From: Bacteroidia bacterium
GTDB taxonomy: Bacteria; Bacteroidota; Bacteroidia; Flavobacteriales; Flavobacteriaceae
DNA: 64,000 nucleotides
Direction: 5' to 3'
NCBI GenBank assembly: GCA_030427735.1
Contig: JAUIBP010000001.1
Coordinates: forward strand, 434,001 to 498,000
Shown: positions 13,548 to 36,957 of the stretch, one piece after another
How positions within the stretch are numbered: the first letter of the stretch is position 1
Layout of the letters: every line of letters starts with the position of its first letter
Notes under the pieces: generated by a model
What the model was told of the DNA's origin: nothing
Seen by the model: only the letters and a program-made list of their open reading frames with translations
Database searches by the model: none
Position numbers and translations under genes: made by a program

Positions 13548-14618
13548 ATGATTACAAGCCGTTTTATCTTTAAGCAATTAGGTCGATTAGTGTTACACCT
13601 TATTTTTTGGTGTGGTGTACTATTGTTTTACACCTACTTTTTCGGAGCTGGAAGTGACGACATGAGTTATGTACTTTCGTTTTCAGCCTTTTTAATGCCA
13701 ATTACCATTGCTACAACCTACGTGTGTATTTACAAGCTTATACCTGAGTATTTAATGCAAAAAAAATACATCCGTTTTGCACTTTACAGCTTATATACCT
13801 TTATTATATCGGCTTATCTTATTATACTTTCTATTTTTTATGGCCTAATATATTTATCGCATTTCGAATACAGGAACATGGCTCCTGATAGTCAGAATTT
13901 ATTATTTGTAATGATTGGCGTTTACTTAATTACAATAGTAGTAAGCACTTTTAAACTTTTAAAATTAAACCTGGAACAAATAGAAAAAACCAGCAAGCTA
14001 GAAAATAAGATTTTAGACACCCAATTAAAACTAAAAGAGCAAGAGCTTCAATATTTAAAAATGCAGATTCATCCGCACTTTTTATTTAACACCTTAAACA
14101 CCATGTACGGCTTTGCCTTAAAAAAAGCCAACGAAACACCCGAAATGATATTGAAACTATCTAACTTATTAGATTATCTTCTGTACCAAATAGACAAACC
14201 TTTTGTTTTATTAACAGACGAAATTAATCATATTAACGATTATCTAGCTTTAGAGTCGCTACGTTTCAACAACACCTTAAATCTACAATTTAACACCCAA
14301 AACATTAACGATAACACCACAATAGCACCTATGCTTTTTTTGCCTTTTATTGAAAACAGCTTTAAACACGGTGTTATTAAAAATGGCAGGTTAACTATTA
14401 AAATTGAGATGCATTGTAACGCAAATTTAATTTCATTTCACATTGAAAACACAAGCTCCAACGACAACGAATCCGAGCCAGGTATTGGCTTAGAAAACAT
14501 AAAAAAGAGATTGGATTTACTTTACAAAAACAACTACAATTTATCTATTTCGAACACAAACGGATTATTTATAGTACATTTAAATTTAAACACCCAAACA
14601 TTGTATGCAAACCAATAA
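13548..14618 (+). CDS. LytS/YehU-type sensor histidine kinase
   Basis: 356 aa. Four N-terminal membrane helices (about residues 10-135) are followed by a coiled linker and a His_kinase (PF06580) domain. The phospho-acceptor is the first His of QIHPHFLFNTLNTMYG. The ATP-binding part shows LFLPFIENSFKHGV (N box) and GIGLENIKKRLDLLY (G box). It lacks a separate periplasmic sensor domain, as usual for this family. It overlaps the next gene by 14 bases, so kinase and regulator are translationally coupled. The stimulus cannot be told from the sequence. Confidence 0.93.
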   Translation: MITSRFIFKQLGRLVLHLIFWCGVLLFYTYFFGAGSDDMSYVLSFSAFLMPITIATTYVCIYKLIPEYLMQKKYIRFALYSLYTFIISAYLIILSIFYGLIYLSHFEYRNMAPDSQNLLFVMIGVYLITIVVSTFKLLKLNLEQIEKTSKLENKILDTQLKLKEQELQYLKMQIHPHFLFNTLNTMYGFALKKANETPEMILKLSNLLDYLLYQIDKPFVLLTDEINHINDYLALESLRFNNTLNLQFNTQNINDNTTIAPMLFLPFIENSFKHGVIKNGRLTIKIEMHCNANLISFHIENTSSNDNESEPGIGLENIKKRLDLLYKNNYNLSISNTNGLFIVHLNLNTQTLYANQ

Positions 14619-15324
14619 AAATATAGGATGCTTAATTGTAGACGATGAGTTAATAGCGCGAGAAGTTATAGCCACTCACCTATCTAAAATTAACAACATT
14701 TCGATTATTGCTAGTTGCAGCAATGCCATGGAAGCTTTTAACCATATAAGCAACACCAATATAGATCTGGTGTTTTTAGACATTAATATGCCTGGAATAT
14801 CTGGCATATCGTTTGCAAAATCAATCAATAAAAACATTAAAATAATTTTTACTACAGCCTATCGAGATTATGCTGTAGAAGGCTTTGAATTACAAGCTGT
14901 AGACTATTTATTAAAGCCTATTGCTTTTGAACGTTTACTTAAAGCTGTAAATAATTATTTTGAAGTTTACACCAACTCACAACAAAGCAATGTAGCATCC
15001 AGCCCAATTTCAGATTTTATGTTTGTGCGCTCGGACAGAAAAATGATTAAAATAGATTTTGAAGATATCATTTATATAGAAAGTTACAGCGATTACCTTA
15101 AAATTAAGCTCGGTAATAATAATGTTATTGTAACCCGAGAAACCATTAGTTCTATTGAAGCAAAATTACCCAAAAAACATTTTTTACGCATTCATAGATC
15201 TTATATCATTTCCATAAAACACATTCGCTCGTTCACCAACGAACATGTTACTATTTTTAACCAATCTTTACCAATAAGTCGCAGCTATAAGAAAGAAGTG
15301 CTTCGAGAGCTCGAGCAATATTAA
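14605..15324 (+). CDS. LytTR-family response regulator
   Basis: 239 aa. The receiver domain (residues about 7-120) has the acidic pair Asp13/Asp14, phospho-acceptor Asp59 in FLDINMPG, the TTAY switch and the LLKPI lysine. The C-terminal LytTR DNA-binding domain (about 135-239) reads FMFVRSDRKMIKIDFEDI, IYIESYSDYLKIKL and FLRIHRSYIISIKHI. It pairs with the overlapping upstream kinase. Regulators of this class bind direct repeats, often upstream of their own operon. A bidirectional terminator follows. Confidence 0.95.
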   Translation: MQTNKNIGCLIVDDELIAREVIATHLSKINNISIIASCSNAMEAFNHISNTNIDLVFLDINMPGISGISFAKSINKNIKIIFTTAYRDYAVEGFELQAVDYLLKPIAFERLLKAVNNYFEVYTNSQQSNVASSPISDFMFVRSDRKMIKIDFEDIIYIESYSDYLKIKLGNNNVIVTRETISSIEAKLPKKHFLRIHRSYIISIKHIRSFTNEHVTIFNQSLPISRSYKKEVLRELEQY

Positions 15325-33389: not shown

Positions 33390-34196
33390 CTAACCGTGTC
33401 TGTAAGGATATTTTAGTTCCAGTTGCACTCCTGCTTTGGGTTTGGAGCTTAAACGTATAGTTGCATCTATTAAGGCTGCCCTACTTTTCATATTCAACAA
33501 CCCAGCGCCGTGTTTTACAGTATTCATATCGAAACCTACGCCATCGTCACTAACGTTAACCAACATAAAATCGTTGCCATAATTGATGTCGACTTTTAAA
33601 TGTGATGCTTCAGAATATTTTATAGTATTTGAGAAAAACTCCTGAACAATGCGAAAAAGAATGATGGTATCTTTAGTTTCAGATAACAAATCAGGATTTC
33701 CATTTACAAACAATTCAGCCTGTAACAGTCCCAATTTATTAAAGCGTTCTATTTCATTATGTATAGATTCTTGAAATCCGTGATGCGCTATAACATCGCT
33801 ATTTAACGATTTAGACAAACCGCGAAGCTCTTGCAAACTTTCTTTTACGATGCCTTTGGTTTCGGAAAACGATTCTGCTAAATCGGTGGGGACTTGTCTG
33901 GAAAGCATGCTTAACTGCATATTAGCTACCGATAATAATTGACCAACATTATCGTGCAAATCTTGCCCTATATTTTTAAGCGTTTGTTCCTGGATTTCGA
34001 TTTGGGTTTTGGCAATTTCTTCTTCAAATAACTGCTGTTGCTTAATTTTATCTAGCAATAGTTTGTTTTTTCTTTTTTGGAAAGTGATAAAAAAAACAAT
34101 AATTAACGTACCAACAATAAACAACACACCTATCATGTAAACTAACATGTAGCGTTCTGCAGATGTACTTACTATCGATTCTCCGGTTTGCACCAT
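33390..34196 (-). CDS. NarL-type (HisKA_3) sensor histidine kinase
   Basis: 268 aa. One membrane helix (about residues 17-39), a coiled segment, then dimerisation/phospho-acceptor His81 in IGQDLHDNVGQLL, and an ATPase domain with VQEFFSNTIKYSEASH (N box) and VSDDGVGFDMNTVKHGAGL (G1 box). No periplasmic or PAS sensor is present. The gene overlaps the upstream 7-TM protein by 25 bases (unless translation starts at the ATG for Met17, after that gene ends), so sensing may be supplied by the 7-TM protein. No response regulator is adjacent. Confidence 0.88.
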   Translation of the reverse strand: MVQTGESIVSTSAERYMLVYMIGVLFIVGTLIIVFFITFQKRKNKLLLDKIKQQQLFEEEIAKTQIEIQEQTLKNIGQDLHDNVGQLLSVANMQLSMLSRQVPTDLAESFSETKGIVKESLQELRGLSKSLNSDVIAHHGFQESIHNEIERFNKLGLLQAELFVNGNPDLLSETKDTIILFRIVQEFFSNTIKYSEASHLKVDINYGNDFMLVNVSDDGVGFDMNTVKHGAGLLNMKSRAALIDATIRLSSKPKAGVQLELKYPYRHG

Positions 34197-34873
34197 AATA
34201 AGGCAAAGGTAAAAGTTAAATACATAAATATATTAGCAGACGAAGAAATTAAGCGCTGTAAAAGCACAAAATCCATATCTTTTTTTGTGTAATACATATT
34301 GTAAAACACTATTGGAGTTATAATAATCAACCAAATAAACATTGTCGCACTAATGTAAAAATAAATAGATTTATAAAAGTTTAATATACGATCTGATTGC
34401 AACATTTCGAAAAAGTAAACACTTACTAAGAACAAAATTATAAGTTCGCTAAATACCATAATGGACGGAACAAGACCTGTAAAAAGCCTGTTTACATTTA
34501 AGGCAATTACACTTAAGCAAAACAACAGAAATACGCCTAAAATAATCTTTATAAACACTTTAACCTTACTAGCGTTTATAAGTTTGTAATAAAAGAAGCA
34601 ATAAAACAATGTAGAGCCTACCCCCCAAGTTAAATTAATCCACCAGTAATTTCGCGCAAATAAAGTGCCTTTTAAAACACTAAACACGCCGTCCTCCACT
34701 TGATAAGTGTACAATGCAATTGTTTCGCAAATGAATACATAAATAAGAAAATAAATAAAAAACTTAGCAACTGTATGCTTATACTTTTTATAACAAAGTA
34801 GTGCAGTTACAGCTGCTAAGGCTTCTACAGAAATTATTAAAATGCTGTAATAGCTAAATAAAAATTCCTTCAT
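34172..34873 (-). CDS. Seven-helix membrane protein of a kinase operon
   Basis: 233 aa with about seven hydrophobic helices (near residues 5-25, 36-56, 78-97, 106-125, 133-153, 168-190, 207-227) and very short loops. I do not recognise the family; the layout resembles the 7-TM sensing modules fused to kinases. It starts six bases after the stop of a 140-aa soluble protein and overlaps the following histidine kinase, whose own membrane part is a single helix. The likely role is sensory input to that kinase (inference). Confidence 0.65.
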   Translation of the reverse strand: MKEFLFSYYSILIISVEALAAVTALLCYKKYKHTVAKFFIYFLIYVFICETIALYTYQVEDGVFSVLKGTLFARNYWWINLTWGVGSTLFYCFFYYKLINASKVKVFIKIILGVFLLFCLSVIALNVNRLFTGLVPSIMVFSELIILFLVSVYFFEMLQSDRILNFYKSIYFYISATMFIWLIIITPIVFYNMYYTKKDMDFVLLQRLISSSANIFMYLTFTFALLWCKPENR

Positions 34874-34879
34874 TGAATG

Positions 34880-35302
34880 TTATTGAGGATAATTTGCAGC
34901 TGGAGGATCTCCCGCTGTTCCCATATTTAATCCTCCACCTCCAGGAACATCGCCACTCGGTGCAGCGGCCGCTTTATAAGCTATATTATCCTGCGATTTT
35001 TCAGAACTTTTTTTAGTGCCCGTAGGTATTAAAAACATGGTTGTTAAATTATCCTCTTTATGGGCGCCTTCATAAACCCGAATACCGTCAAACGTGTAGC
35101 CAAGTTCTTCTGCTTGCTTTTCGGCGTAAGCCAAGAATTTTTTAATCTCATCTAAAGAATACCAAGTCGAGCGGTTATCTGGTTTACCCAAAAACTTGCT
35201 TACTGCTTCGTGTCTAGAATTGTACGCCTCATCTAAAGCTTTGGCCTGCTCGGGTGTTATTAAGCCACGAGGCGCTTCTGTTTCGTTTAATTTTTCATCC
35301 AT
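34880..35302 (-). CDS. Hypothetical protein, first gene of a kinase operon
   Basis: 140 aa, soluble, no signal peptide. A conserved-looking core spans about residues 10-100 (RGLITPEQAKALDEAYNSRH, STWYSLDEIKKFLAYAEKQA, FDGIRVYEGAHKED, TTMFLIPTGTKK). The last 30 residues are low-complexity Ala/Gly/Pro (SGDVPGGGGLNMGTAGDPPA). I do not recognise the family. It heads a three-gene cluster with a 7-TM protein and a histidine kinase, spaced by 6 bases and an overlap, so it probably belongs to the same signalling unit. Confidence 0.6.
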   Translation of the reverse strand: MDEKLNETEAPRGLITPEQAKALDEAYNSRHEAVSKFLGKPDNRSTWYSLDEIKKFLAYAEKQAEELGYTFDGIRVYEGAHKEDNLTTMFLIPTGTKKSSEKSQDNIAYKAAAAPSGDVPGGGGLNMGTAGDPPAANYPQ

Positions 35303-35418: not shown

Positions 35419-36957
35419 TTACCCCAACCAACCTTCACGATCTAAACTTCTGTACTGAATCGCTTCGCTAATATGATGGCCTTGTATGGTTTTTGAAGCT
35501 TCTAAATCGGCTATGGTTCTTGCTACTTTTAAAATACGGTCGTAAGCTCTAGCCGAAAGGTTTAATCGTTCCATTGCTGTTTTCAACAATTGCAAAGACA
35601 CGTCGTCCAACTTACAAAACAGTCTAATGTGCTTACTTCCCATTTGGGCATTATAATGCAAATTATCGTAGGTTTTAAAACGTTCGGTTTGCAAACTTCT
35701 GGCTTTAGTAACACGATCTCTTATGGAAACCGAAGGCTCGCCATTGCGCTCTTCTGAAAGTTTTTCGAAAGGGACAGGAGTCACTTCTATATGAATATCT
35801 ATTCGATCTAGTAATGGTCCAGAAATTTTACCTAAATACCGTTGCATTTCGGCAGGCGACGACGTAACTGGTGCATTGGGGTCGTTAAAATACCCACTCG
35901 GACTCGGGTTCATACTGGCTACCAACATAAAACTGCTGGGATAAGTTACAGTAAATTTGGCTCTAGAAATGGTAACCTCCCGATCTTCTAAAGGCTGCCG
36001 CATCACTTCTAAAACATCGCGTTTAAATTCTGGTAATTCATCTAAAAACAACACACCATTGTGCGACAATGAAATCTCTCCAGGTTGCGGATAACTTCCG
36101 CCACCGACTAAGGCAACGTTCGAAATGGTATGATGAGGACTTCTAAAAGGACGCTGCGACATGAGCCCGATATCGGATTTTACGCGCCCAACAACAGAAT
36201 GAATTTTGGTAGTTTCTAGCGCCTCATGCAATGTCATTGGCGGTAAAATAGAAGGTAATCGTTTGGCAAGCATTGTTTTTCCGGAGCCAGGTGGCCCTAT
36301 TAAAATGATGTTATGTCCACCAGCTGCCGCTATTTCCATGCAGCGTTTTATACTTTCCTGTCCTTTTACATCGGCAAAATCGAATTCAGGGACATCCAAA
36401 TGTTTATAAAATTCTTCACGTGTATTTATTATGGTTTGTTGCAAAGGAATATCATCTTTGAAGAAATCGATAACTTCCTTAATACTTTCAACTCCAAACA
36501 CTTCTAAATCGTTTACAATAGCGGCTTCTTTAGCATTTTGTTTAGGCAGTATAAAACCTTTAAAACCTTCTTTACGCGCTTGCAATGCTATAGGCAAAGC
36601 GCCTTTAATAGGCTGCAAAGTGCCATCTAACGACAGTTCACCCATAATAATATAACGCTCTAAATCTTTTGCTGGAATTTGTTTACTTGCTGCTAGTATA
36701 CCTAAAGCTAATGTTAAATCGTAGGCGGATCCTTCTTTACGCAAATCGGCAGGCGACATGTTAATAATGATTTTCTTGCCTGGTATTTTATAACCATTAT
36801 TTTGTAATGCAGCAGCAATTCTATAATTACTCTCCTTTATGGCATTATCGGGTAATCCTACAAGGTGGTAGCCTATTCCTGAATCTACATTTACCTCTAC
36901 GGTTATGGTAGTGGCATCGACCCCAAAAACAGCACTACCAAATACTTTTTTGAGCAT
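35419..36957 (-). CDS. comM: YifB/ComM-type Mg-chelatase-like AAA+ ATPase
   Basis: 512 aa. The N-terminal ChlI/Lon-like fold (about 1-190, [20 protein letters not shown]) is followed by an AAA+ domain with Walker [21 protein letters not shown], Walker [11 protein letters not shown] and [12 protein letters not shown], then the C-terminal Mg_chelatase_C region ([20 protein letters not shown]). ComM/RadA-like helicases drive branch migration when transformed DNA is integrated; the natural competence of this organism is not shown here. Length is typical. It is monocistronic. Confidence 0.93.

Follow-up and report, generated by a model that had tools for sequence, protein, structure and literature searches.

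To our knowledge, few two-component systems use a separate membrane protein as their sensor. In UhpC-UhpB-UhpA, the membrane protein that senses for the HisKA_3 kinase is UhpC, a 12-helix transporter relative. The 7TMR-DISM receptors are seven-helix bacterial sensors. In the LiaFSR and VraTSR systems, an accessory protein in the membrane accompanies the HisKA_3 kinase and the NarL-type regulator, and LiaF is termed an inhibitor of LiaRS in an excerpt of a published study (PMC7191749).

Here, we analysed a window of 64,000 nucleotides from a genome of the Flavobacteriaceae, the window being the whole stretch of DNA studied. It contains a HisKA_3 kinase gene that is preceded by two genes, named S140 and 7TM. 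Two regulators have to be considered with them: RR1, a NarL-type regulator located directly after the kinase gene in five divergent relatives, and O55, which is encoded elsewhere in the window's genome. The features are the following:

34880-35302, minus strand: S140 gene, ORF of 140 aa
34874-34879: gap of 6 bases between the S140 and 7TM genes
34172-34873, minus strand: 7TM gene, ORF of 233 aa
34172-34196: overlap of 25 bases between the 7TM and kinase genes
33390-34196, minus strand: HisKA_3 kinase gene, ORF of 268 aa
33386-33389: junction between rluA and the kinase gene, the site of RR1 in loci L046 and L049
G000:C9:144455-145084: O55, orphan NarL-type regulator in the window's genome

The first-pass annotation had described three genes spaced by 6 bases and by an overlap of 25 bases, and the ORF coordinates, all on the minus strand, agree with this. 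The rluA gene is convergent with the kinase gene, and 4 bases separate its end from the kinase stop; the other flank of the trio is a comM-like gene (35419-36957). Among named loci, the exact 25-base overlap was found in 17 of 80 7TM-kinase pairs and a gap of 5-9 bases in 42 of 84 S140-7TM pairs, both counted with uncorrected starts of the ORF caller and with some genomes repeated. This recurrence is more than chance. The motif TAnnTTTG, which we take to be the Bacteroidota promoter consensus, was absent from the 116 bases upstream of S140, and 12 promoter-like sites were found versus 9.1 (sd 3.1) in shuffles. That no response regulator lies nearby was also annotated correctly, since rluA abuts the kinase gene. 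Within the window, the searches revealed a single regulator, which is of the LytTR type (14605-15324), lies about 18 kb from the trio and is unrelated to the S140-7TM-kinase unit.

The kinase was scanned against Pfam and matched HisKA_3 with 45.7 bits (cut-off 24) and HATPase_c with 39.8 bits (cut-off 26.4), and no other Pfam domain exceeded its cut-off. One hydrophobic stretch is found at about residues 14-42. Pfam and hydropathy thus both support the annotation as a single-helix HisKA_3 kinase without a sensor domain. The H, N, G1 and G2 motifs are intact (LHDNVGQ, SNTIKYSEA, DDGVGFD and GAGLLNMKSR). Judged from these residues, the protein is a HisKA_3 sensor histidine kinase with a phospho-acceptor histidine and ATP-binding motifs.

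For S140 and 7TM, nothing was found in Pfam and NCBIfam at E <= 1, and when 57 homologues of 7TM and 44 of S140 were scanned, just single members matched unrelated families. The predicted structure of 7TM shows seven long helices with a mean pLDDT of 92.8. The positive residues predict an N-out/C-in orientation in 48 of the 57 members and the opposite in 2. The alignment of these members had no invariant column and no catalytic motif stood out. The predicted model of S140 contains two helices and two long strands and has a mean pLDDT of 83.5. Its fold gave no Foldseek match at E <= 0.001 and a best Z of 3.7 over 52 residues. Sequence searches against solved structures returned matches at E >= 0.49 only. 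In the window, S140 ends with the tail PPAANYPQ, and a tail of the YP type ends 104 of 131 homologues. A simple hydropathy rule detected a hydrophobic N-terminus in 89 of these 131 (10 of the 89 with a lipobox-like cysteine), a set in which named loci partly duplicate sampled genomes. It is missing in the window's S140 and 41 others. The annotation of a soluble protein therefore holds for the window, where S140 has neither an export signal nor the N-terminal anchor common in its homologues, but would not extend to most homologues.

The conservation of the unit was followed in a sample of 199 Flavobacteriaceae genomes. Among the matches listed per genome in profile searches, 7TM was present in 119 and S140 in 122 genomes; both were found in 118, one only in 5 (1 and 4, respectively) and neither in 76. 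A separate scan of named genomes was seeded with the kinase alone, and its best 80 matches represent 79 distinct loci. The 7TM gene was directly upstream of the kinase gene in 79/79 and S140 was present in 76/79, the remaining three ending at a contig edge. The three-gene order is thus conserved. A kinase gene without the 7TM gene, which would have spoken against the unit, was looked for and not seen in the 79 loci. Likewise, no 7TM-kinase fusion was found there (the longest kinase ORF has 314 aa, with an uncorrected start). The first-pass annotation had proposed a kinase that was split from its 7TM sensor. Since this wording implies a fused ancestor, we do not follow it; the conserved unit is in line with a kinase and a 7TM protein encoded by separate genes, the latter very probably being the sensor of the former.

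Two or more 7TM genes per kinase occurred in 21 of the 79 loci, and tandem copies were also present among loci lacking RR1, called RR-less below. The largest of these is the locus of Christiangramia crocea (L268), in which one kinase gene and its regulator are preceded by five 7TM genes and two S140 genes. In the first 20 neighbourhoods (L031-L050), each kinase gene had a 7TM gene directly before it; the nearest one in L048 is a 93-aa fragment, which is preceded by a full-length 7TM. S140 preceded the kinase gene in 19 of them, the copy of L048 being recognised by profile only, and L040 ends at a contig edge. Twenty further loci were picked for oddity. Here, an additional S140 separates 7TM from the kinase gene in L144, and in L150, L152 and L153 S140 and 7TM are present but the HisKA_3 kinase type of the unit is missing. 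In L151 (3053-5792), a His_kinase/LytTR pair takes the place of HisKA_3/NarL behind the S140-7TM pair. Proteins related to S140 of 310-323 aa, about twice the usual length, are encoded at L142:6448-7419 and L143:4035-6214, where they adjoin S140-7TM-kinase-RR units; the first one of L143 had no Pfam match. Among 296 genomes from across the phylum, 30 have S140; the Flavobacteriaceae account for 18 of these, a second family of the order for 6 and other parts of the class for the last 6. This occurrence pattern agrees with a plug-in sensor module for kinases. Taken together, S140, 7TM and the kinase very likely form a conserved sensor-kinase unit.

RR1 followed the kinase gene in 7 of the 79 named loci (Aquimarina, Gillisia, Christiangramia, Gramella and one MAG). 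In L046 and L049, RR1 separates the kinase gene from rluA and occupies the spot that is empty in the window. RR1-clade genes were detected in 51/199 genomes at E <= 1e-52, of which 49 have 7TM and two (G084 and G127) do not. The window's genome yielded no such gene; its top hit to the RR1 profile scored 150 bits, compared to 192-398 for clade members. This hit, C11:92918, was rejected as a relocated RR1; its orthologues occur in 37/199 genomes (E <= 1e-40), are absent from G004 of the same genus and are also present in genomes with RR1. On the kinase tree (FastTree, 113 rows) the RR-linked state changes once with a support of 99, and 97 of the rows are RR-less kinases. RR1 has been lost in the window's clade, apparently once. 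The canonical arrangement with a regulator beside the kinase gene is therefore not found in the window. The annotation was right about the vicinity of the trio; it missed a fourth operon gene in the relatives and a distant regulator that co-occurs with the unit.

This distant regulator is O55. From a comparison of the NarL regulators in four RR-less genomes, three orphans were tested in the 199 genomes. O55 was present in 49/49 genomes with a type A unit and no RR1-clade gene, in 26/32 with such a gene and in 8/118 other genomes, five of the 8 having a divergent 7TM; the limits for type A (7TM E < 1e-37) and for O55 (E < 1e-52) were both chosen once the lists were in view. With the 1e-40 cut of the search itself, the numbers were 49/49, 27/32 and 16/118. 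When the genomes were sorted by coordinates, O55 was found in 18/24 in which RR1 adjoins the type A unit versus 57/57 in which it does not (Fisher p 0.0004, not corrected for kinship). With and without the unit type, O55 occurred in 75/81 versus 8/118 genomes, whereas the two control orphans gave 25/81 versus 12/118 (C11:92918) and 78/81 versus 69/118 (C8:53936). C8:53936, also called L53, was rejected as the output; it is found in 147/199 genomes and its acceptor column holds Glu and not Asp, as judged by eye. With an acidic pair of Asp-His, this gene (L066:5937-6563; G000:C8:53936-54559) looks like a widely kept pseudo-receiver.

The same gene served as the marker for a kinship tree of 80 genomes. 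On this tree, 14 genomes without any 7TM were also below the O55 cut, among which G078 has an O55 match of 108 residues with 71% identity. A kinship-corrected test for shared loss was not significant, with 6 supported pairs, about 4 of them the same way and 0 opposite (p 0.06-0.25). The control regulator C11 showed no trend. An orphan O55 was found in G110, G167 and G149 (88, 75 and 99% complete) where no type A 7TM was found. Directly upstream of the orphan O55 is a small gene in 32/32 fetched loci, which in the window's genome is aspartyl-protease-like by its Pfam match (PF13650, 42.7 bits; L068:5882-6412) and is a first place to look for a target.

We then fetched 55 O55 loci, 29 of which come from the 57 RR-less genomes. 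In 23 of the 55, a kinase of about 640-690 aa is encoded directly upstream of O55, and four of these kinases were scanned and have TPR, HisKA_3 and HATPase_c domains. The TPR-kinase gene adjoins O55 in 18/18 loci where the genome carries RR1 next to its type A unit and in 0/29 where the type A unit is RR-less. It is further found in G068, G103, G123, G140 and G175, and not beside O55 in 32 loci, namely the 29 RR-less ones, G110, G167 and G149; for other genomes than the window's, its absence was judged from the O55 neighbourhood alone. The closest other HisKA_3 kinase in the window's genome is a TPR-kinase paralogue, 31-33% identical to the lost TPR-kinase, beside its own regulator. This pair, a TPR-HisKA_3 kinase and a NarL regulator 44% identical to O55, is located about 3 kb past the right end of the window (L064:3796-6453; G000:C4:500795-503452). 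In the best O55 tree the TPR-kinase state changes once, and the branch uniting the kinase-linked O55 has a support under 80. The loss of the TPR-kinase is best read as one event rather than 29. Thus, the unit and the O55 system are separable where each is whole and were found together in all cases where both are halved.

Comparing the receivers of kinase-linked and orphan O55, the most divergent column was position 84, two residues after the conserved Thr/Ser (T+2). It is His or Tyr in 23/23 kinase-linked and Asp or Glu in 32/32 orphan O55. In RR1, it is Asp or Glu in 20 of 21 and Gln in 1, with one locus counted twice (L146 and L266). Among 18 other NarL regulators, taken from four genomes only and limited to those with D54 and K104 (18 of 26), none was acidic (10 His, 5 Tyr, 2 Leu, 1 Phe). 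Positions 14 and 83 changed in the orphan O55 without approaching RR1, and position 87 moved towards RR1 and, less so, also towards the other regulators. By the numbering used here, position 14 is DD+4. Excerpts of two studies describe T+2 as close to DD+4 and as affecting the kinetics of phosphorylation and dephosphorylation (PMC8510515, PMC12632262). On the kinase side, several helix columns differ between RR-linked and RR-less kinases (sets 2 and 3 included kinases from 330 bits upwards). The RR-less kinases retain their own family's helix residues and show no approach to the lost TPR-kinase. RR1 loss, TPR-kinase loss and the change at T+2 can each be placed at a single event, so that the large counts are not independent.

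These results suggest the following mechanism. The 7TM protein (N-out, C-in) would detect a signal together with S140, which in most relatives would be anchored in or exported across the membrane, and this membrane complex would switch the kinase, which itself lacks a sensor domain. In the ancestral state, the kinase would have phosphorylated the RR1 encoded beside it. RR1 would then have been lost in the ancestor of the window's clade, and O55, encoded elsewhere, would have lost its own TPR-type kinase and become the output of the 7TM-unit kinase. We give a probability of roughly 60% to this reading, a split-sensor two-component system that was rewired by reciprocal loss, with O55 replacing RR1, probably in a single event. 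Phosphotransfer to O55 as the present output of the kinase is likewise the probable case, given a strong pattern with one founding event. Against this reading are the mapping of each change to one event, the low branch support on the O55 tree, the non-significant kinship-corrected test, the three genomes with an orphan O55 and no type A 7TM, the general effect of T+2 on reaction kinetics, and the lack of an export signal in the window's S140.

A different course of events, which we regard as rather unlikely, is that the kinase signals after the loss of RR1 to another or to several regulators, and that O55 is served by the paralogous TPR-kinase or works independently of a kinase. HisKA_3 kinases share similar partners, several further NarL regulators are encoded in the window's genome, and the paralogous kinase beside a regulator so similar to O55 could act on O55, which also counts against the rewiring. 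In addition, the rim of the active site of the orphan O55 is changed at 14, 56, 83 and 84, which could mean a kinase-independent use. However, C11:92918 and C8:53936 do not track the unit and O55 does, a second O55-like regulator (E <= 1e-40) occurs in few RR-less genomes among the matches listed, and T+2 of the orphan O55 took a state otherwise seen only in RR1. It is far less probable still that the kinase of the RR-less clade is a relic without output, temporarily kept after the loss of its regulator. This would agree with the lack of an adjoining regulator and with the 49 unit genomes without an RR1-clade gene, but the strict patterns of H, N, G1 and G2 match in 117, 114, 115 and 112 of 118 kinases, a mostly RR-less set in which named loci partly duplicate sampled genomes. 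The high share of RR-less kinases on the tree and the tandem 7TM copies within RR-less loci also speak against a relic.

The 7TM protein itself might not be a receptor, but an enzyme or transporter that regulates the kinase or is regulated by it. Transport proteins can be kinase accessories, as are UhpC and BceAB, and 7TM belongs to no named family. This is improbable in view of the 57-member alignment without an invariant column or a prominent catalytic motif. The position of S140-7TM beside a different kinase type in L151 and the loci with multiple 7TM genes per kinase argue in the same direction, as both are expected of interchangeable sensors.

The unit is common in the Flavobacteriaceae, as seen from the frequency of 7TM in the sample, and includes two protein families unnamed in Pfam and NCBIfam. 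A literature search returned no paper with a title or abstract describing the S140-7TM-kinase unit. If the rewiring is true, genomes from before and after the change coexist, which makes the partner switching of kinase-regulator pairs directly testable, with T+2 as one residue to start from. As a tentative description, one or several GPCR-shaped 7TMs and a mostly exported partner may converge on a sensorless kinase; in a large clade, two complete two-component systems may each have lost the half that the other kept, with the remaining kinase and regulator becoming partners and O55 gaining an acidic T+2 like that of RR1. The GPCR shape refers to the fold. GPCRs by title make up 49 of the 50 rows shown, with a Z of 10.9-12.3 and an rmsd of 4.0-5.0. 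The seven helices align in order over 198-226 of 233 residues at 6-13% identity. The best Foldseek E was 0.16, and a Z below about 13 can mean a shared helix arrangement only, so that the predicted model gives no evidence for homology of 7TM to GPCRs. The gene neighbourhood points to a histidine kinase rather than to G proteins.

Compared with the described systems, the window's kinase scored 87 bits to the UhpB model, far under the cut-off of 408 and in the kinase part only, and 77 bits to the LiaS model, far under the cut-off of 450. Unlike in LiaFSR and VraTSR, the membrane protein 7TM matches no LiaF family (Pfam and NCBIfam, E <= 1), an S140 gene has been added and the regulator gene has been lost. 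When the 7TMR-DISM family (PF07695) was compared with the 57 7TM homologues, one match at E 0.042 and none below was obtained. The unit shares seven helices with the 7TMR-DISM receptors, but sensor and kinase, which are fused in those, are encoded here by separate genes.
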